A stretch of 42,762 bases of DNA from Planctomycetales bacterium (GTDB lineage Bacteria; Planctomycetota; Planctomycetia; Isosphaerales; Isosphaeraceae): assembly GCA_027451885.1 (NCBI GenBank), contig DAIDHX010000133.1, forward strand, positions 1-42,762, written 5' to 3'. The number at the start of each line of letters is the position of its first letter. Positions within the stretch are counted from its first letter, which is position 1. The notes under the pieces were generated by a model that was not told where the DNA came from, searched no databases, and worked only from the letters and a program-made list of their open reading frames with translations. Shown here piece after piece: positions 1,861 through 32,112 of the stretch. Both the position numbers and the translations under genes were made by a program.

Positions 1861-4800
1861 TTAACAATCGACGGTCGACCTGTTCGACAGGGGCGCATCG
1901 GGATCGAGGGTCGCGCGCAGACGATCCCAGAAACCGATTCCTTGCATTCGCAGCCAGCGCCTCCTGGATACCGCGAAGTAAAGAACAGGGAGAAAGACGT
2001 CGATCACCTCGTCGGCGATGAGCAGCCCGCCAAGCACGGGCGCTGCCATCGGCCGGATGACTTCGGATCCCACTCCCGTCGCCCAGAGCATGGGCGCGAT
2101 CGAGAGAACCGCCGCCCCCTCGGTGAGCAATTTCGGCCGCAGGCGGTGAATCGCGCCTGTGAGAATCGCCTCACGCAGCTCCGCGATCGAGCCGATCCCC
2201 GCCAGCCCCCCCCGTTCCTCGATCGCCTCGTGCAGGTAAACGAGCATCACCACGCCAGTTTCCACCGCCATGCCGAAACAGGCGATGTAACCCACCTGCA
2301 CCGCCACGCTGAACTTGAAGCCGAACAGCCACTGAAAGATCGCCCCGCCGGCAAGCGCTCCCAGCACGCTGGTCATCATCAGCAGGGCGTCGATCCAGCT
2401 CCTGTGGGTCATATAAAGAATGAGCGCGATGAGCGCGATGACCGCCGGAAAGACCAGGCGCAGCGTCCGATTGGCACGGATCTGATGTTCAAAGGCGCCT
2501 GTCCATTCGAGATAAACGCCGCTGGGCAAGCCGGGAACAACCTTCTCGTTCACGCGTTGCCGCGCTTCCTCGACGAATCCGACCAGGTCGCGGTCGTCGC
2601 TCACGCGAAGCTGCACGTAGGATCGCAGGAGCCCGTTCTCGCTCTTGATCATCGACGGTCCCTCGACGATTTTCACATCGGCGACGGAGGCGAGCGGGAT
2701 CTGCATCGGCTGCCTGGCCGCCGCGCCGGACGCCTGGCCTGGCGCCGTCATTCCGGCCATGCCGTTCGACTCCGCGCCCGCGGCTGAAATGCGAGCGGCG
2801 ACCAGGATATTCTTGAGCGCCTCGACGTCGTCGCGAAAATCACGACCATAGCGCACGCGCACGGGATAACGCTCGCGCCCTTCCACCGTGAAGGTGAGCG
2901 GCCGACCCCCCATCGCCACTTCAACCACGTCCTGGACGTCTCCCACATTGACCCCGTAACGGGCTGCGCGTTTGCGGTCGATCGTGATCTCGACATAGCC
3001 CTTGCCAGTCACCTGGTCGGCAAAGACATCAACCGCGCCACGAACTCCGCGCAGGGTCTCGGCGACCTGTTGCCCCACGCGCTGAATGTCCTCCAGCCGT
3101 GGACCAAATACCTTGACCGCCACGGGCATCCGCGTGCCGGTCGAGAGCATCTCGATCCGGTTCGCGATCGGCTGCGTGAAGCTGTTTCCCCAGCCGGGCA
3201 TTTGAAGCGCATCGCCCATTTCCTCGACCAGATCGGCCTTGGTTTTTTTCCACAGCAACAGCCAGCCCGCGAAGGAACGGTCGAGCCCCGCGCGAATCGT
3301 CTCAATCTGCTCGGGCGCGGGCTCCGCCACGACGAGCCCGCGACCGCGCCCGAGTGCCACGAGCTGGCTGATCGCGGATTCGTTCGCGGTGGCGACGGCA
3401 ATGTCAAAGAGCTCCCAGTTCAGCGCTCCGATGCGCTTGAGCATGCGTTCGTGATGCCGGGTTTCAAGCTCGCGCTCGATGCGTGCGAAGAATGAAAGCT
3501 CGGGAAAGCCCAGGAGATCCCTGACGAATCGGAGGCCGCGTTCGCGAGGAGCGAGCGGGGGCGCGAGCAGCTCTGGCTGATCGCGGGCGACGCCGAGCGC
3601 AACGACTCGCCGCGCCAGTGCGCGGACGAGCGCGGCAACGTCCTCGGGCAGCACGGTCGCCGCCAGCCTCTCGGCGTGGGGTGTTTCAAGCTCGGCGGCG
3701 AGTGCATCCCGCTCACCTGGCTCGAGCGGGCGAATGAGCAGGGCAGGGGAAATCGCGGCGAGTGTGGCGTCGATCGCGTCGCCGACGAGCGCGCGGCCAA
3801 GCTGCGGGCGGAACTCCGCGAGCGCTGTGGCGGCGTGGCCGCGCAGGCGTGAATCGACCGCGGTTGAGACGGCCATGGCGGCCTCGTTCGCAAGATCGTC
3901 GCGCTCGGGTTGGAGCGCGGAGGTTCGCAAGATCCCCGCGCCTTCCAGCCCGCGCATGGCGTTGCGCGTCACGCGGAGCGCGTCCTCGGGTTTCAGCTTG
4001 CGCCTGGTCCAGAGATCGTGATCGCGCAGGTTGATCACCGTTTCAATCATGTCGAGCGGCGAGGGATCGGTCGCGGTCTCGGCCCGGCCGGCCTTGCCGA
4101 CAACCTGCCAGACCTCGGGAAACCCGCGCAGAACCGCGTCCCGCACCCGCAAGTCGCGACCGACCTCGGCGATCGACGCCCGCGGCACCGTGGTGGGCAT
4201 CTCGAGCAGGCTTTGCTCATCGAGATCCGGCATGAATTCTCGCCCAAGCCGCGTCGAGGCCGCCAACCCCAGTCCCAGAATCACCACGAAGAGCCAGCAA
4301 ACCAGCCCGGTGCGATCCATCAGCCAGGCGAGCATCGGCTTGAACACGGCGATCATCGAGCGTACAAGCCAGTTCTCGTCCTCGGAACGAATCCGCCCCT
4401 TGAGGAAGATCGGGATCAGCGCGGGCACCAGCGTGATCGAAAGCAGGGCGACTCCCACAAGGGCGAAGGTTTTGGTGAAGGCGAGCGGGTGAAACATCTT
4501 GCCTTCGCGGCCCGAAAGCGCAAACACAGGTAAGAATGATAGAATCGTGATAAGAACAGAGAAGAAGATCGGCCTGCCGACCGTGCGGCACGCTCGGACG
4601 ACGATCTCGGTGGTATCGCCGCGCACGGGCTGCCTGCCGAACTGCCGCGCCAGGTGGTGGGCTGCGTTTTCGCCCATGACCACGGCCTGGTCGATCAGAA
4701 TGCCCACGCTGATGGAGATCCCCGCAAGGGCCATGATGTTCGAGGGCATGCCCAGGATGCGCATCATGAGAAAGCTGAAGAGGATCGCCATGGGCAAAGT

Positions 4801-5895: not shown

Positions 5896-7763
5896 GAGTG
5901 CGCCCCCGCCGCGTGAGAGGCTCGCCCCTCGGCCGGCGCGGCGTGAAGCTCGTGACCCGAGGGCGCCTCCGCGCGCGTCGCCGGGTCGATGCGACTCTCG
6001 GCGTCGATCAGAAACGCACCTTCCGCCGCAACCTTCTCACCCTGCTTGAGCCCGCCCATCACGGGGAACCGGTCGCCAACCCGAGGCCCAAGCATCACCT
6101 CGCGTCCCTCGAACACGCCCCGCGCCACTTCCACATAGACCAGCTTGCGGGTCCCCGTGTCGACAACCGCCAGCTCGGGAACGCAGAGAACCTGGTCGCT
6201 CGGGGCCGCGGATAATCGCGCCAGGTATCTGGCAGGTTCGGCCTTGAGCCTGGGCACGCAGGCCTCGCAGCAGGTGTAGACCTTGCGGCCTTCGATCTCC
6301 ACAAGCACAGGCGCGCCCATCGTTCCAAGCTTCGAGCCGGTCACAGGACAGACGCCTTGCTCCTGTGCTGCGCTCGGCCTGCCTTGTGCTGCGCTCGGCC
6401 TGCCTGGCAGGGCGGTCTGCGCGGGGGCCGCGAGCTGCGCCAGATACTTCGCGGGATCCGCCTTCACGCGGGGCGGGCAAGCGTCGCAGCAGGTCCAGAT
6501 CGTTTGCCCGCCCAGCTCCACCGCAACCGGCGGACCCATCGTGCCCAGCTCCGCCTCCGTGACAGGGCAGCGCCGCCCATCAGGATGCGCCCCGCTCCCG
6601 CCCGAGTCAGGCCCCCGCGCCCCGGCCAGACGCGCAATCGGCGTCTTAAGCGTCACCCGCGCCCACATCCCGGGCCGCAGCCGATGACCCGGATTCTCAA
6701 GCTCGAAGCGCACGTCCACCGTACGCGTCGAGGGATCGAGATGCGGCTGCACAAATTCAACCTTGCCAGGGAACACCTCGCCCGGAAACGCCGCAAACCA
6801 CGCCTCCACCGCCTGGCCGGTGTGGATCAAGCCAACCTGATGTTCATAAACCTGCGCCTGGATCCACACCGAATGCAGGTCGGCCACCTCGAACAGTGTG
6901 AATCCTTCAGGAACTTCCTGCCCCTCGGAAATGAATTTCTTGTAGACGTGCCCGCTTTTGGGCGAAAGAATCGGAATCGTAAAAGTATCCTTGCGCGTTT
7001 TCACAATCTGATCGATCTGCTCCGGTGTGATCCCCCAGCGCTTGAGCTTTTCCCGCGCGGCCTGCACGAGCTCTTGATAGTCCGTCGCCAGCGACCGGGC
7101 CAGCTCGGATCGCGGCGGGGCCGTCGTCTCCGTACGCTGGCTCGCGCTCAAAAGCTCCTGGATCGCCTGGGCGAGCTCGGGGCTGTAAACCTCGGCAAGC
7201 GTCTGCCCGATCAGCACGTCCTGCCCGGTGAAGTTGACGTGGAGCTTCTCAACGCGCGTACGCCCGGGAACCCTGGACACGATGTTCGCGATCCTGCGCT
7301 CATCGAACGCAACATAGCCCACCGTGCTCAGCGTTTGCGCGAGAGGTGCGTAATCGACGGCCACCGTGCGGATTCCCGCCTGTTCGATCCGGAGCGGGGA
7401 GAGCTCGACCCGCGCGACGGCACCCGGGCCGGGCGCGGCTTTCGCCCCCTTCACCCTGCGCGAGAGCGGCATGTTGCAGATCGGGCATTGACCCGGAGTC
7501 TCCTGCACAACCTGAGGATGCATCGGGCAGAAATACTCAAACGTCGCCGCGGCGGCGGAAACGCCCAGGGCCGAAGGTCTGCGCCATTTCTCGTAGCGAT
7601 TGACAAGCTCTTCCCACGAGACGAACACAAAACCCGTTGCCGCCACAATCGCGATGAATCGCAGCCTGAGCTCGACCACCTTGAAGATCAGGCGGAACTT
7701 ACCCCAGCGCGAGGGAGCACGAACCGACGCGGAGGAACCCCGATCGACCTGGTTGGAATCCAT
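5892..7763 (-). CDS. cusB: CusB-type periplasmic adaptor with HMBD and two YHS-like Cys domains
   Basis: A 623-residue membrane-fusion protein of the HlyD/CusB family, anchored by a helix at about 34-50. Residues 77-102 form a heavy-metal-binding domain (YFCPMHP, then CPICNMPL), as seen in many CusB and P-type ATPase N-termini. The lipoyl/hairpin/barrel core spans about 115-375. Between the barrel and the membrane-proximal domain (about 525-600) is a 140-residue insert with two similar Cys-rich repeats at 399-443 and 472-516. Each reads CPVT...LGTMG...TCC-x2-AC...ADPAKYLA or a close variant, like YHS/TRASH metal-binding modules. A linker between them carries a 7-residue duplication. It should link the CusA-like pump to an outer-membrane channel. 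Overlap with the pump gene implies coupled translation. Confidence 0.92.
   Translation of the reverse strand: MDSNQVDRGSSASVRAPSRWGKFRLIFKVVELRLRFIAIVAATGFVFVSWEELVNRYEKWRRPSALGVSAAAATFEYFCPMHPQVVQETPGQCPICNMPLSRRVKGAKAAPGPGAVARVELSPLRIEQAGIRTVAVDYAPLAQTLSTVGYVAFDERRIANIVSRVPGRTRVEKLHVNFTGQDVLIGQTLAEVYSPELAQAIQELLSASQRTETTAPPRSELARSLATDYQELVQAAREKLKRWGITPEQIDQIVKTRKDTFTIPILSPKSGHVYKKFISEGQEVPEGFTLFEVADLHSVWIQAQVYEHQVGLIHTGQAVEAWFAAFPGEVFPGKVEFVQPHLDPSTRTVDVRFELENPGHRLRPGMWARVTLKTPIARLAGARGPDSGGSGAHPDGRRCPVTEAELGTMGPPVAVELGGQTIWTCCDACPPRVKADPAKYLAQLAAPAQTALPGRPSAAQGRPSAAQEQGVCPVTGSKLGTMGAPVLVEIEGRKVYTCCEACVPRLKAEPARYLARLSAAPSDQVLCVPELAVVDTGTRKLVYVEVARGVFEGREVMLGPRVGDRFPVMGGLKQGEKVAAEGAFLIDAESRIDPATRAEAPSGHELHAAPAEGRASHAAGAHS
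6198..6611 (-). other. Inserted tandem YHS-like metal-binding region in CusB
   Basis: This part of the adaptor gene encodes about residues 385-522, which ordinary CusB proteins lack. It contains two copies of a 45-residue Cys module. Each copy has one Cys before VT and a TCC...AC cluster about 26 residues later, then a conserved Lys-Ala-x-Pro-Ala-x-Tyr-Leu tail. The copies are similar but not identical, so the duplication is not recent. Four or more Cys per module makes metal sensing or delivery plausible, by inference. Confidence 0.7.
6364..6405. repeat. Perfect 21-bp tandem duplication inside cusB
   Basis: A 21-bp unit beginning TGTGCTGCGCTCGGCC occurs twice back to back with no mismatch. 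It is in frame and encodes a repeated GRPSAAQ in the linker between the two Cys-rich modules. The identity suggests a recent slippage event that lengthened the linker. Confidence 0.95.
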
Positions 7764-8533: not shown

Positions 8534-9868
8534 ATGATCATTGCTTTCACTGTCGAAAACTATAAACCCTTCCTCGAAAGCACGACGATCGACTTCACCG
8601 CCGGAAAGACGTTCGGACTTCCCGGAAATCTACTCCGACTCCCAAATGGCCAGCGTTTCGTGAAATCGATGGCCCTGTATGGTCCGAACGCGTCCGGCAA
8701 GACGACAATTCTGGATGGTCTTTACGCGCTCCAGTCCTTCGTTCTCTTCAGCAGTCAAGACCAGAAGCCGACATCCCCTGTTCCCCTCTTTGAGCCCTTC
8801 ACCCTCGGCAGGCAATCGTTGAAACAGCCGGTGCGTATCGCACTCACAATCCAACTGGGCGGCGACACATACACTCTCGATGTCTCAGCGACGGCCGAGC
8901 GGGTTTGGAGCGAGTCGCTGAAAGTGCAACGCACGATGAATCAACCAATCCGCAAGGCTCCAGCCCGGACACTGATTGAGCGTGCGTGGGACCCAAAGAG
9001 AAAACGCTACATCGCGACACTTCACGACGATGTTGGCACGGAGCTGACTCGAGATGCGGCGAAAGAGCAGACAACGCCAAATCGTTTGATGATTGGGAAA
9101 CTTGCGTCGTTGAACAGCGACACTGCGAGACGCGTTATCGAGTGGTTCGATAAGGATCTCGAATTCTATGACTTGCATCGCAATCAGCGCCGCGAGGAAG
9201 AAATGCTAACCGCGGCTGCAAGGCTGTTCAAGGATAATGGTGCATTTGCGGCGCTGATCGGGCGCCTTCTAAAAGACGCTGATACGGGTATTCGGGAGTT
9301 AGGCGTCGTTGACGAGGACTTCGTCGTCCCTGTGCTTTCCGAGCAAGAAAAGAAACTGGAATTCAAGAAGCGTATTCAACCGACGCTCTCGTTCCGTCAT
9401 GTCACGAAAGATGGGTCGGAGATCGCCTTTCGCTCTCGTCAGGAATCGTCCGGGACCCTCCGCTTCGTGGCATTGCTCGCTGCCCTTCTGCAACCGACGG
9501 ACCGCCCGCGTCTGGTTTGCATCGACGAAATCAGCGCCAGCTTGCACCCTGATCTGGTACGCCGCCTGATGCGCATCGTCCATACTCGTGAGTACAATCG
9601 GTTGGGAACTCAGTTGTTGTTTACAACACATGACACAACGTTGCTTGATCCGCGAGATCGGCTGCGCCGTGATCAAATCACCATATGCAGTAAGGATCGT
9701 TTCGGGAGAAGCACCGCAAGGCGGCTGGATTCGTTTCAGGACTCAGCGAGGTCGGATGCCAACCTGCAAAGGCAGTATCTGGACGGGCGTTTTGGCGGCT
9801 TGCCACGATTCGGCCCGACGCTTGAGGACGTTTCGGTTGACGATGAGCCGCTGGAGGTGACTTCTTGA
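8534..9868 (+). CDS. RloA/AbiLi-like AAA ATPase (putative phage defence)
   Basis: A 444-residue ABC/SMC-type ATPase of the AAA15/RloA group. The N-terminus (MIIAFTVENYKPF, start of a DNA-repair-ATPase-like fold) leads to Walker A GPNASGKT at 50-57. A signature-like ESSGTLRFVALLAALL follows, then Walker B RLVCIDEISASLHP and the H-loop FTTHDTTLL. Length is normal for the family. It overlaps the next gene, an RloB homologue, so the two form the pair known as RloA/RloB or AbiLi/AbiLii, which is linked to abortive infection and often found beside restriction systems. Here no restriction genes are adjacent. Base composition is clearly more A+T-rich than in neighbouring genes, pointing to horizontal transfer. 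The trigger and mode of action are unknown. Confidence 0.85.
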   Translation: MIIAFTVENYKPFLESTTIDFTAGKTFGLPGNLLRLPNGQRFVKSMALYGPNASGKTTILDGLYALQSFVLFSSQDQKPTSPVPLFEPFTLGRQSLKQPVRIALTIQLGGDTYTLDVSATAERVWSESLKVQRTMNQPIRKAPARTLIERAWDPKRKRYIATLHDDVGTELTRDAAKEQTTPNRLMIGKLASLNSDTARRVIEWFDKDLEFYDLHRNQRREEEMLTAAARLFKDNGAFAALIGRLLKDADTGIRELGVVDEDFVVPVLSEQEKKLEFKKRIQPTLSFRHVTKDGSEIAFRSRQESSGTLRFVALLAALLQPTDRPRLVCIDEISASLHPDLVRRLMRIVHTREYNRLGTQLLFTTHDTTLLDPRDRLRRDQITICSKDRFGRSTARRLDSFQDSARSDANLQRQYLDGRFGGLPRFGPTLEDVSVDDEPLEVTS

Positions 9869-10617
9869 AGAAGGCGATTACCAATCGGCGCATTCTGATC
9901 GTTGGGGAGGGTCGTGAAACGGAATACAACGACTTTGTCGGCTTCCGAAACGCGATGGAGGATGAACTTGAAGACACGGCGACCTCGATCCAGATCGCTC
10001 GTGGGAAAGGCGGCAATGCGGATGGCATTGTGCGGAACGCGATCAAGGAGGCGAAAAAGTTTAAGCCCGACCCAGGACGGGGTGATCGAGTGTTCCTGGT
10101 AATGGATACGGAAGGGCCCGGTCGCGCGCCAGAGCTACCCAGCGCCGAGAAAAAGGCTAGAGAAAATCGCATCGATATCGTGTACTCATGCCCGTGTTTT
10201 GAATTCTGGATTCTGTGCCACTTCGAAAAGCCGCCTGGCCACTACTTCAATGATTGCACTCGGGTCATTTGTGATCTTAATAAAAAGTGGACTCGCGTCA
10301 GCAAGAGTGCTTACGACAAAGCGGACAAGGATATCTTCGAGCGGTTGCATTGCTCGCTGGAACTCGCCTGTGAGCAGGCGTTGGACCGCAACCTGAAACA
10401 CAGCAGAACACCGGGTAGCAATGCAAGCCATCCGAATCCGTCCACCCAAATCCACGAATTGATCGCTCTCTTGATTGGCGTTCGAGGTGGGCAGAAGTGT
10501 CCCGTTTCAGGAAGCTGGACGACAGTCAGCGGCCCTGCCCAAACGACAAGGACCGAGAGAGGAAAAACCCTGCCGAGTTCGGACGGTGGGTCCGGGAGAT
10601 GGCGTTTACTCTCTTGA
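9865..10617 (+). CDS. RloB/AbiLii-like protein (putative TOPRIM-type effector)
   Basis: A 250-residue partner of the upstream ATPase. The start is TTG at 9865, overlapping the rloA stop by 4 bp, with GGAGG at 9853-9857 as its ribosome site. RloB family landmarks are visible: RRILIVGEGRETEYNDF near the N-terminus (acidic residue after a beta strand), RVFLVMDTEGPG in the middle, CPCFEFWILCHFE, and HPNPSTQIHELIALL near residue 200. The acidic residues fit a TOPRIM-like metal site, so nuclease activity is a reasonable inference. After IHELIALL about 45 residues follow (rich in Gly, Ser, Thr and Arg) that do not look like the family, probably read-through after loss of the original stop. The ancestral end would be near 10490. 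Confidence 0.82.
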   Translation: MKKAITNRRILIVGEGRETEYNDFVGFRNAMEDELEDTATSIQIARGKGGNADGIVRNAIKEAKKFKPDPGRGDRVFLVMDTEGPGRAPELPSAEKKARENRIDIVYSCPCFEFWILCHFEKPPGHYFNDCTRVICDLNKKWTRVSKSAYDKADKDIFERLHCSLELACEQALDRNLKHSRTPGSNASHPNPSTQIHELIALLIGVRGGQKCPVSGSWTTVSGPAQTTRTERGKTLPSSDGGSGRWRLLS

Positions 10618-11254: not shown

Positions 11255-11510
11255 GTGACCGGCTGAGCGCCGGCGTTGAGGGGCGGACCTGGCACGAATG
11301 CACGCACTTGCTGGCGCTGCGTGCTCGTATCGGCGGCGCGGTCGAGGGTGTTGATTCCGCGGCGACGAAGGAACCCAGGCGCGCCAGAAATCGAACCCAG
11401 GCGCGTCAGAAAATGAGGCCACAACCGCTGCGCAAATCCGAGTTCGAGATCTCCATAAAATGAATCCAGAAAGAGAGATCCGTCGACTGCGAACCGAACC
11501 CATTGCGCCC
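11255..11510. repeat. Long direct repeat, copy 2
   Basis: Second copy of the block at 10944-11199, in the same orientation and 311 bp downstream. Differences from copy 1 are mostly single bases (for example AACATG versus AAAATG near 11457). No terminal inverted repeats, target-site duplications or transposase were seen, so its class is unknown. Confidence 0.9.
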
Positions 11511-11972
11511 CCGCGGAGCGAAGCCAACCGCGTCGGCGAACCGAACCCAGCGCGGGAGGTGACGGCGAGGGAGGAATGCGGCCGTCGCTCGGTGATGAGG
11601 TCGGTTTACGGCGGGTCGGGTCGTGCGGGGAAGGCGGAACGTGACGATCAGGCGGTTTGGGTCGCCGGGATGCGACTTCGCTTGTTTGTCACTGTCACCC
11701 AAATTCACGCCAGAGGTCATGAGGAAGCAAACGTGCAACCCTCGAGAGCCGAATGTGGCCTTTGCCCAGGGTGCGGAACAGTCATGGCGGTCCGTGGAAG
11801 GTTGTGTCAGGACGAGGGTTTCCCTGGCGTGTGGAATCCGTTCGATCCAGCGAGATCGTTCCAGTCGCACGAATCGTCAAAAGCTTTGGGAACGGTGATG
11901 TCGATGAGAGGATCAGGAAGGGCGTGGTGGGAGTGCGCTCGGATCGGGGTTGGAATTCGCCAGGGGATGCGG

Positions 11973-13400
11973 ATGGATCGCCGCCCAATCCTGCTGCTGG
12001 TCCTGGCGTTTGAGCTGGCTGGGTGCGCCCAGCCTGATCGGCGTTTGTCCGCGGGCAAGGTGGATCATTCGGTCGTCCCCGCGGTTCATCAGGTCGAGGA
12101 AACGCCTGCGCAGCGACCGCTGGAGGCCGAGACCCTGTCGCCGGCGAGGATGTCAGCCGACCTGCTTGTCGGCCCGCAGCCGGTGGAGGCTTACATCGCC
12201 GTCGCGTTGCGTGAGAACCGCACCGTGCAGGCTGCGTATCACAACGTGCAGTCGCTGAAGCACCGCGTTCCGCAAGCGGTCGCCCTCGAAGATCCCTATC
12301 TTTCAAACACGATCTTCCCGATCCCGAGCGTTGCGCCTCAGTATTCGCTGATGGGTTATAACCCGTATAACTTTTCGCTTGCCCAGCAATTTCCGTGGTT
12401 CGGAACCCTTCGTCTGCGAGGCGAGACCGCTGCGCGTGACGTGCAGGTCGCCCTGGCCGAGCTTGCCGCGGCCCAGCTTGACGCCGTGGCGGCGGTCAAG
12501 CGGGCGTATTACAGTCTGCACGCCAGCGTGAAGACGCGGGAAATTCTCCGTGAGAATCGCACGATTCTCGAGGATTTTCGCGAGGTTGCGCGTGAGCGGC
12601 TGCGCAGCGGCGGGACGCAGCAGGACGTGCTCCGCGCGGAGGTGCTGCTGAACGAGCTCGACCGGGAGCTTGCCACTGCTGAGCAGGGGATCGCCCAGGC
12701 GCGGGCGGCACTTGCCAGGCAGATTCACGCGCGTGCCGACTCCGATCTAGCGACGGTTCCCGAGCTGCCGCGGTTGTCGGTCCCCAGGGAACTTGAACGG
12801 CTCGAGGAGATTGCGGCGAGCGTGCGGCCGGAGATTCAGGGCCGGCTTGCGGCCGTGGCGCGCGACGAGAAGGCGGTGGAGCTCGCCCAGAAGCGCTACT
12901 ATCCCAACGTCACGCTCGGCCTTGCGTTCATGGACATGACGAAATCGAACGCGGCCACGCCGGCCACGGCCGCGGGAGCGCCGAATGTCGGCCTGTTCGT
13001 CGGCCTGAACCTGCCGATCCACCACAAGAAGTATGACGCAGGCGTGCTGGAGGCGCGGGAACGGGCCCTGGCGGACGCCAAGCTTTACGAGGCCCAGCGC
13101 GACCTGGCGTCGAGCGAGATTCAGGATCTGCTCGCCCAGGCCCGCGCGGAGGAACGCACGCTGGATCTGCTCCGAGACGCGATTCTGCCGCGAACCAAGC
13201 GAACACTTGAGCTTGCCCGCGGCGACTATGCGAAGGGAAACGTCGATTACGCCACGGTGCAGTCCGCGCTCCGCGAGGTGCTCCAGATCCAGCTTCAGAT
13301 CACTCAGAGCGAGGCCGAGCTCGCCAGGGACCTGGCCGCACTCGAGCGTGCCGTGGGCGCCGAGATCGCAGGTCCCGCGGAAACACCCCCCCAGAGATAG
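11973..13400 (+). CDS. cusC: CusC/TolC-type outer-membrane efflux lipoprotein
   Basis: An outer-membrane factor of 475 residues. The N-terminus is a lipoprotein signal with lipobox LAGC (Cys 18 from the chosen start). Two OEP repeats follow, rich in long helices: the first with QQFPWFGTLRLRGE and a coiled helix with LRSGGTQQDVLRAE, the second with GLFVGLNLPIHHKKYDAGVLEARERAL and a final helix with GNVDYATVQSALREVLQIQ. The ATG at 11973 was chosen because AGGGG ends 6 bp upstream and the signal peptide starts there; the frame is open much further upstream (to 11460) but has no family sequence. It should form the channel for the CusBA-like pump, whose genes are divergent and about 3.7 kb away. 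Confidence 0.9.
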   Translation: MDRRPILLLVLAFELAGCAQPDRRLSAGKVDHSVVPAVHQVEETPAQRPLEAETLSPARMSADLLVGPQPVEAYIAVALRENRTVQAAYHNVQSLKHRVPQAVALEDPYLSNTIFPIPSVAPQYSLMGYNPYNFSLAQQFPWFGTLRLRGETAARDVQVALAELAAAQLDAVAAVKRAYYSLHASVKTREILRENRTILEDFREVARERLRSGGTQQDVLRAEVLLNELDRELATAEQGIAQARAALARQIHARADSDLATVPELPRLSVPRELERLEEIAASVRPEIQGRLAAVARDEKAVELAQKRYYPNVTLGLAFMDMTKSNAATPATAAGAPNVGLFVGLNLPIHHKKYDAGVLEARERALADAKLYEAQRDLASSEIQDLLAQARAEERTLDLLRDAILPRTKRTLELARGDYAKGNVDYATVQSALREVLQIQLQITQSEAELARDLAALERAVGAEIAGPAETPPQR

Positions 13401-28919: not shown

Positions 28920-28997
28920 TCGACGGTTGGGCGATGGGAAGTCGGCGCGGGAGTGCGCTTGCTTCCCTTCGGATATTGGCAAAGGGTAGAAGGCGAG

Positions 28998-30548
28998 ATG
29001 ATAACGATCGACCATCCGTTTTCCGTCCCCAAGGTCAAGACGGAGATCGACGGTTTCGACCTGATTGCGAATGGTGGACTCCCGGTTGGCCGATCCACCT
29101 TGGTTTCGGGTACTTCAGGCAGCGCGAAGACCGTTTTTGCCGCCCAGTTCCTGGCCGCGGGGATTGAGCGGAGCGGTGAAAATGGAGTTTTCGTCACCTT
29201 CGAGGAGCCGCCTGAGGATATCCGCCGGAACATGAAGGGTTTCGGCTGGGATATCGCCGGCTGGGAGGCCAGCCGGCGGTGGGCGTTCGTGGATGCTTCT
29301 CCCCAGCCGGGCCAGCCGCTTCAGGTGGCCGGTCCTTATGATCTGGGTGCGCTGCTGGCGAGGGTGGAGCATGCAGTGCAAAAGGTGGGTGCCAGGCGGG
29401 TCTCGATCGACTCGGTGGGGGGGATTTTCACCCAGCTTGGAGAAAACGCCAACATACGGCATGAGCTCCTCCGGCTCTCGATGTCGATGCGTCGGCTCGG
29501 GGCGACGACCGTGATCACCGCCGAGCGGCTTGAAGACAAAGGTCCCGTCTCACGCCACGGCGTTGAGGAGTTTGTCTCCGACAACGTGGTGCTCTTGCGG
29601 AACGAGCTTCAGGACGAGGTGCGGCGCCGGACTGTCGAGATCCTCAAGTTCCGCGGCGCCACACACCAGAAGGGGGAGTGGCCGTTCACGATCGTGTCGG
29701 GTGAAGGCATCATCGTGATTCCGCTCTCCGCGATCGAGCTCAAGCAGAAATCGTCGGACGCGCGGATCACCACGGGGAATATCGAACTCGACAGGATGTG
29801 CGGCGGCGGTTTTTTCCGCGATTCGGTGATTCTGGTCTCGGGGCCGACCGGCACGGGCAAGACGCTGGTCTCAACCGAGTATCTGGCCGCGGGCGCCCGC
29901 GCGGGCCAGCGCTGCCTGCTCTTTGCCTTCGAGGAAAGCCGCGAACAGCTCTTCCGCAACGCGGCAGGCTGGGGCGTTGAATTCTCCGAGCTGGAATCGA
30001 AGGGGCTGATCCGGGTGATCTGCGAGTATCCCGAGGCCATGGCGCTCGAGGATCATCTGATTCGCATCAAGAAGGAAATTCTGGACTTCAATCCCGATCG
30101 CGTGGCGATCGACAGTCTGTCGGCACTCGAGCGCGTGGCCTCGCTGAAGAGCTACCGCGAGTTTGTGATCGGCCTGACGTCCTACATCAAGCACCGCGAG
30201 ATCCCTGGGCTCTACACGGCGACGACCTCAGCGCTCCTGGGTGGGACATCGATCACCGAGACGCATATTTCGACGATCACGGACTCGATCATTTTGCTGC
30301 GTTATGTCGAGGACATTGGGCGCGTGCACCGGGGGATCGCGGTGCTCAAGATGCGCGGTTCCAGGCACGACAAGGACATCCGCGAATTCGTCATCGACCA
30401 CGAAGGGCTGCACATCCTGGGGCCGTTCCGCACGGTCTTCGGGATTCTTTCCGGAAATTTCCGCCAGGTGACTCAATCGGAACTCGATCAGGTTGAAGTG
30501 ATTCGTGAGGCAGCCACGCCTCTCCCGACGCAACGGAACAGCGGCTAA
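28998..30548 (+). CDS. kaiC: Circadian-clock-type ATPase/autokinase KaiC
   Basis: A 516-residue double-RecA protein. CI: Walker A GTSGSAKT at 38-45 and catalytic Glu pair E69-E70 (VTFEEPPEDI). CII: Walker A GPTGTGKT at 282-289 and E312-E313 (FAFEESREQL). The autophosphorylation pair matching cyanobacterial S431/T432 is S425/T426 in ETHISTITDSIILL. The R-x-KMRGS-x-HDK-x-IREF block follows. The C-terminal tail is short and lacks the KaiA-binding A-loop extension of cyanobacteria. The ATG at 28998 was chosen for its KaiC-like start and nearby AAGG; a GTG at 28953 is possible. The gene is 13 bp from a hybrid kinase gene, its probable output partner. Confidence 0.95.
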   Translation: MITIDHPFSVPKVKTEIDGFDLIANGGLPVGRSTLVSGTSGSAKTVFAAQFLAAGIERSGENGVFVTFEEPPEDIRRNMKGFGWDIAGWEASRRWAFVDASPQPGQPLQVAGPYDLGALLARVEHAVQKVGARRVSIDSVGGIFTQLGENANIRHELLRLSMSMRRLGATTVITAERLEDKGPVSRHGVEEFVSDNVVLLRNELQDEVRRRTVEILKFRGATHQKGEWPFTIVSGEGIIVIPLSAIELKQKSSDARITTGNIELDRMCGGGFFRDSVILVSGPTGTGKTLVSTEYLAAGARAGQRCLLFAFEESREQLFRNAAGWGVEFSELESKGLIRVICEYPEAMALEDHLIRIKKEILDFNPDRVAIDSLSALERVASLKSYREFVIGLTSYIKHREIPGLYTATTSALLGGTSITETHISTITDSIILLRYVEDIGRVHRGIAVLKMRGSRHDKDIREFVIDHEGLHILGPFRTVFGILSGNFRQVTQSELDQVEVIREAATPLPTQRNSG

Positions 30549-30561
30549 TCGGTCCAGTTCA

Positions 30562-32112
<1,551 letters not shown>

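Follow-up and report, generated by a model that had tools for sequence, protein, structure and literature searches.

In a planctomycete genome, we found a CusB-like periplasmic adaptor with two tandem cysteine modules inserted between its barrel and its membrane-proximal domain (MPD), encoded beside a CusA-type heavy-metal pump. On balance, we favor the view that these modules act as built-in Cu(I)/Ag(I) chaperones, which pass metal to the pump. The arrangement of known parts is new; it is frequent in its lineage and belongs to a broader pattern. The locus lies in a stretch of 42,762 nucleotides of a Planctomycetales bacterium from the family Isosphaeraceae (GCA_027451885.1, contig DAIDHX010000133.1), which was analyzed at its full length and is referred to below as the window. 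The relevant features are listed in Table 1.

Table 1. Features of the adaptor, the pump and a possible outer-membrane partner in the window
Feature	Position	Strand	Basis or remark
CusA-type heavy-metal RND pump, 1344 aa	1861..5895	-	TIGR00914; 4-base overlap with adaptor end
Pump insertion, ~256 aa (aa 631-886)	3238..4005	-	Between second and third methionine sites
CusB-like RND periplasmic adaptor, 623 aa	5892..7763	-	HlyD_D23 and RND_mfp profiles; fold match to CusB/ZneB
N-terminal helix, aa 19-61	7581..7709	-	AlphaFold2 secondary structure; putative membrane anchor
N-terminal HMBD, aa 77-98; Cys 79, 93, 96	7470..7535	-	PF19335
Barrel-sandwich/hairpin part, aa 141-368	6660..7343	-	PF16576 (HlyD_D23)
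YHS/TRASH-like module 1, aa 399-444; Cys 399, 425, 426, 429	6432..6569	-	Profiles, self-alignment, models
Inter-module linker, 27 aa	6351..6431	-	Disordered in AlphaFold2 model
Perfect 21-bp tandem duplication in linker, GRPSAAQ twice	6364..6405 (6364-6384 + 6385-6405)	-	
YHS/TRASH-like module 2, aa 472-517; Cys 472, 498, 499, 502	6213..6350	-	Equivalent of the single copy of single-module relatives
MPD, C-terminal part, aa 523-600	5964..6197	-	Alignment to CusB 320-396
Outer-membrane efflux protein (TolC/CusC-like)	11460..13400	+	PF02321, 102.4 bits; possible third component, putative partner

The adaptor was recognized by the RND_mfp profile TIGR01730 (112.3 bits versus a cut-off of 94.9) and by the Pfam domain HlyD_D23 (PF16576, 233.7 bits, cut-off 30). 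Its score for NF007303, the CusB subfamily proper, was 91.9 bits and did not reach the cut-off of 390; therefore, we call it CusB-like and not CusB. An HMBD at the N-terminus had been proposed in the preliminary description, and Pfam confirmed it (PF19335, 37.8 bits, cut-off 23.6); its match among solved sequences is the P-type ATPase domain 8ovl. Since the predicted helix precedes the HMBD, we expect the pump-facing side of the adaptor to hold all three metal sites. The protein has 12 Cys residues: three in the HMBD, four in each module, and one at position 527. In a phmmer comparison to E. coli CusB, residues 70-374 correspond to CusB 38-319 and residues 521-597 to CusB 320-396, so that the insert falls between the adjacent CusB residues 319 and 320, i.e., at the barrel/MPD junction, where it had been placed previously. 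In the AlphaFold2 model of the adaptor (mean pLDDT 81.5, pTM 0.55), the modules are well ordered (pLDDT of approximately 86-95 in this model and in that of the insert), with disorder in one flank and in the linker, where residues 449-462 are under 50. Among solved structures, this model is nearest to CusB in the CusBA complex and to ZneB.

The two modules, 46 aa each, align without gaps, with 62% identity at the protein level and 66% at the DNA level (47 codons). The alignment score of 181 compares to scores of at most 60 in 1000 shuffles, and the earlier claim of two tandem Cys modules is thus upheld; the range originally given for them, 6198-6611, contains both and is slightly wider than the modules themselves. 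Each has the pattern C-x25-CC-x2-C. Together with the HMBD, the modules would make up three metal-binding units in one adaptor, a proposal that the sequence supports; such an adaptor may, as suggested earlier, be an active metal collector. We aligned 73 of 80 modules (78 from relatives and the two of the window), leaving out L117, L133, L141, L145, the second module of L154, L171 and L173, which were near-duplicates or cut short. Residues C7, C33, C34, C37 and M17 are invariant across these 73 modules, and Met482 and the Cys residues of module 2 are invariant across 40 adaptors. The duplication in the linker is perfect, as described before; it adds GRPSAAQ and brings the linker to 27 aa, compared to 16-22 aa in five other distinct double-module adaptors.

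The modules appear to be a divergent subfamily of the YHS/TRASH clan that is cleanly captured by no Pfam or NCBIfam model, an assignment for which the profiles give weak support and the predicted fold somewhat stronger support. We make it because profile and fold, each weak alone, converge on one clan. The two-module insert scored 28.5 bits with PF08394 (Arc_trans_TRASH, cut-off 27), the whole protein 23.7 bits and module 2 alone 19.8 bits; with PF04945 (YHS), the insert scored 21.7 bits and did not reach the cut-off of 30.3. Among the 73 modules, matches at E ≤ 0.01 numbered 34 for PF08394, seven for PF24273 and four for PF04945. A search of NCBIfam returned no dedicated or usable family for the module, and a sequence search of the PDB returned no credible solved relative. 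In the model of the insert, each module has a beta-hairpin and, after it, two short helices. The first 12 rows of the Foldseek comparison of this model to the PDB are toluene/o-xylene, toluene-4- and phenol monooxygenase hydroxylases, with a best E-value of only 0.35. More hydroxylases and ribosomal chains of the L24e type (9qf4, 4adx, 1ffk and similar chains, which we take to be L24e from the entry titles alone) make up most of the rows that follow, all at E ≥ 0.35, with the TRASH domain of ZMYM5 at rank 21. VIA-align gave these hydroxylases Z values as high as 5.6, which is middling by the tool's own scale. The YHS/TRASH kinship suggested in the preliminary description is retained tentatively, with YHS below its cut-off, PF08394 marginal, and structural E-values high.

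Compared to YHS/TRASH domains (PF04945, PF08394; the T4MO/ToMO hydroxylases, L24e and ZMYM5), the modules share the core C-x(n)-C-x3-C, present as C399..C425-x3-C429 and C472..C498-x3-C502 and invariant in relatives, so that three of the four canonical TRASH ligand positions are Cys; their predicted hairpin-plus-helices fold appears similar as well. They differ in scores below or barely above the curated cut-offs, in an added Cys that forms a CC pair, in an invariant Met within a GSMG motif, and in the fourth ligand: the Cys or Asp expected at -3 from the first Cys, according to the four-ligand scheme in PMC4626032, is absent, being replaced by a Gln that is nearly invariant in the 73 modules and by Gly in module 1 of the window.

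The neighboring pump matches TIGR00914 (CusA/CzcA) with 967 bits, versus a cut-off of 701.45. Met566, Met616 and Met916 align to the CusA methionines that presumably form the CusA metal-cleft site, a statement that covers the pump of the window only, a regular-expression count over all pumps being too crude. Because these three CusA-type methionines are kept, the pump likely transports Cu(I)/Ag(I), by analogy to CusA. The 256-aa insertion has no Pfam match and no credible sequence relative in the PDB. Many planctomycete relatives have insertions of approximately 100-400 aa at the same pump site, mostly paired with module-bearing adaptors. We compared 75 pump-adaptor pairs located at most 800 bases apart, which came from 80 pump regions (40 of normal length and 40 longer) picked, blind to the adaptors, among the matches listed; the pump set excludes one fragment, five duplicates and 18 ORFs that did not contain both parts of a pump. 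Joint modules accompany 28 of the 33 insertions of at least 80 aa, six of the 13 insertions of 10-79 aa, and two of the 29 pumps with less than 10 aa. On the tree, the insertion changes only three times, and the test of independent pairs, being without power, gave no significance; these two results point to co-inheritance and are not proof of contact. We therefore dropped the idea of a proven coupling between pump insertion and joint module: the raw association is strong (Fisher p of about 1e-8, a value that ignores relatedness), and the independent pairs are not significant.

Adaptor matches at E ≤ 1e-30 are present in 70 of 99 related genomes. The adaptors of Isosphaeraceae usually have one module and sometimes two, and the single copy aligns with module 2 of the window. 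The double module is not unique to the window, since five other distinct adaptors also have two. Among 114 distinct adaptors, taken from a non-random sample (the search profile combined the module with the following domain, and 80 of 300 relatives were kept) and annotated with home-made profiles, the joint carries YHS-like modules in 56 (50 single, 6 double), HMBD in 37 and neither in 20, with one adaptor lacking a scored MPD; C-terminal YHS-like modules occur in 34 of the 114. When loci selected by their pumps were added, the 166 distinct adaptors comprised 56 with YHS-like modules, 65 with HMBD (39 of them single-copy, with a maximum of five copies) and 45 with none detected, the last class including L240 and L254, which have degenerate HMBD-like stretches. 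In the five HMBD-joint adaptors that were tried, the HMBD stretches found by Pfam numbered 3, 3, 5, 4 and 2. Several tandem HMBDs are seen in the joints of L191, L229, L230, L234 and L236, three to five by profile and perhaps six by eye, and L223 and L225 have His-rich stretches between barrel and MPD, with pumps that have no insertion. On an adaptor tree built with the joint excluded, the joint switches from one type to another 10 times or more, and the copy number of the YHS module changes approximately four times among the 56 adaptors with a YHS-like joint.

One to five HMBDs in the joint, or a module at the C-terminus, are found in other Planctomycetota and in a few other phyla. Of 294 genomes of the phylum, 132 contain the module, which also occurs outside adaptors, in short proteins and in tandem arrays; in the handful of genomes checked outside the phylum, two Hydrogenedentes had clear matches, and Riflebacteria and Wallbacteria had weak ones or none. 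The genome of the window encodes a second adaptor (L002, 448 aa), its gene beside a second pump, which keeps the HMBD and the MPD, has lost most of the barrel/hairpin, and carries its YHS-like module at the C-terminus. A further protein of this genome (L003, 147 aa), which is probably a lipoprotein and has one YHS-like module, is a possible free chaperone.

In the mechanism that we propose, the two modules and the HMBD would use thiolates, and perhaps the conserved Met as well, to capture Cu(I) or Ag(I) in the periplasm, and ligand exchange would move the metal from these adaptor domains to the methionine sites of the neighboring CusA-type pump. The modules would thus be a cis counterpart of CusF, which acts in trans in E. 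coli, or of the C-terminal domain of SilB. Metal transfer from the adaptor to the pump is probable, because Cys-rich domains occupy the joint and other metal-binding domains occupy it in relatives; metal binding, the choice of metal, affinity, and transfer with its direction are what we infer. The invariant Cys and Met residues, the YHS/TRASH-like fold prediction, the methionines of the pump, and the recurrence of metal-binding modules at the joint all argue for built-in chaperones. Conversely, the missing fourth TRASH ligand, the weak fold E-values, and a CusF-like domain also encoded in the genome argue against them, and, as the periplasm is oxidizing, the four Cys residues could form disulfides. 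The 45 of 166 adaptors without a detected joint module indicate that the module is not essential.

The CusF-like domain deserves a separate comment. PF11604 has no match in the adaptor of the window at E ≤ 10. It matches in 42 of the 45 genomes of the window's family (ORFs of 255-1337 aa), including the window's own, where it lies in a 376-aa ORF on another contig; we therefore rejected the idea that the modules make up for the loss of CusF. A CusF gene adjoins the adaptor only in L057, L058 and L062, all with an empty joint, but these are the three seeds of a home-made profile and are too few to argue from. CusF itself is described as a nonessential chaperone in PMC8277102.

The most serious rival to a chaperone function, although we consider it rather unlikely, is a metal-gated switch, in which the modules sense metal, shift the barrel/MPD joint, and turn the pump on, the exported metal not being delivered by them. 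The modules are located at the joint, where, according to PMC4446572, ZneB binds zinc and changes conformation, and the same source reports that CusB activates CusA; in addition, a YHS domain makes a cyclase copper-responsive (PMC4626032). However, joint copy numbers from none to five and a disordered linker suit a carrier better than a precise lever. Switch and chaperone can both be true. We give less credence to the idea that Zn-bound or disulfide-bonded modules only shape packing or dock on the pump insertion, without a role in metal flow. In its favor, the YHS domain carried by toluene-4-hydroxylase has neither a bound metal nor a known role, and the TRASH domains include ribosomal L24e, which binds Cd through four Cys (PMC4626032). 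The co-occurrence of joint modules and long pump insertions would also fit; however, it has few independent origins, and a purely structural role hardly explains why two different metal-binding families occur at one place. Very improbable, in our view, is a mobile Cys domain without function in a tolerant loop: this loop takes from 5 to 323 aa across adaptors, and the 21-bp duplication in the linker looks fresh, but the ligand residues are invariant across divergent copies, whereas the linkers are not.

A broader and distinctly tentative extension of the chaperone hypothesis is that the joint may be a modular port that has repeatedly taken up metal domains (one or two YHS/TRASH-like modules, or one to five HMBDs) as a covalent metal-relay array, and that its evolution in Planctomycetota went together with that of a large pump insertion next to the metal cleft; the result would be a separate class of pump with a built-in loading arm. 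The route of metal from the periplasm to RND pumps, whether through a chaperone, through the adaptor, or directly, is only partly settled, and metal domains borne on the joint offer a natural covalent intermediate. The natural series of no module, one YHS, two YHS, and one to five HMBDs provides ready-made comparisons, and a function is suggested for a widespread, unnamed planctomycete Cys domain.

Three other segments of the window deserve mention. Positions 8534-10617 (+) encode an AAA ATPase and a partner that resemble AbiLi/AbiLii, a candidate phage-defense pair. Between 10841 and 11870, repeated peptide-like stretches (FGSHGRNGFGSQSTDLSFWIH...) in minus-strand ORFs suggest a local DNA repeat. 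At 28953-32112 (+), a KaiC-like double ATPase is followed by a putative sensor kinase with a receiver domain, the kinase being named by eye.

We found no description of this adaptor arrangement by title and abstract in the open-access literature, which is weak evidence of absence and concerns open papers only. Compared to known systems, the adaptor resembles E. coli CusB (3ne5, 3h94) in its fold, its CusA-type pump neighbor and its N-terminal metal-binding region. It differs from CusB in the barrel/MPD insert, which CusB does not have, and in the N-terminal site, which is Met-based in CusB (PMC4446572) and a Cys-containing HMBD here. The same paper describes metal transfer from CusF to CusB and an N-terminal region of CusB that can pass metal to CusA. 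SilB of Cupriavidus metallidurans, another metal adaptor, likewise has a metal-binding domain built in (PMC4446572); that domain is CusF-like and C-terminal, whereas the domains of the window are YHS/TRASH-like and internal. ZneB of the same species (3lnn), the best sequence match to the window adaptor among solved adaptors (aligned stretches of chain 171-280 and 287-350), also handles metal at the barrel/MPD interface (PMC4446572); in ZneB, however, this site has no inserted metal domain, whereas the adaptor of the window carries two modules there.
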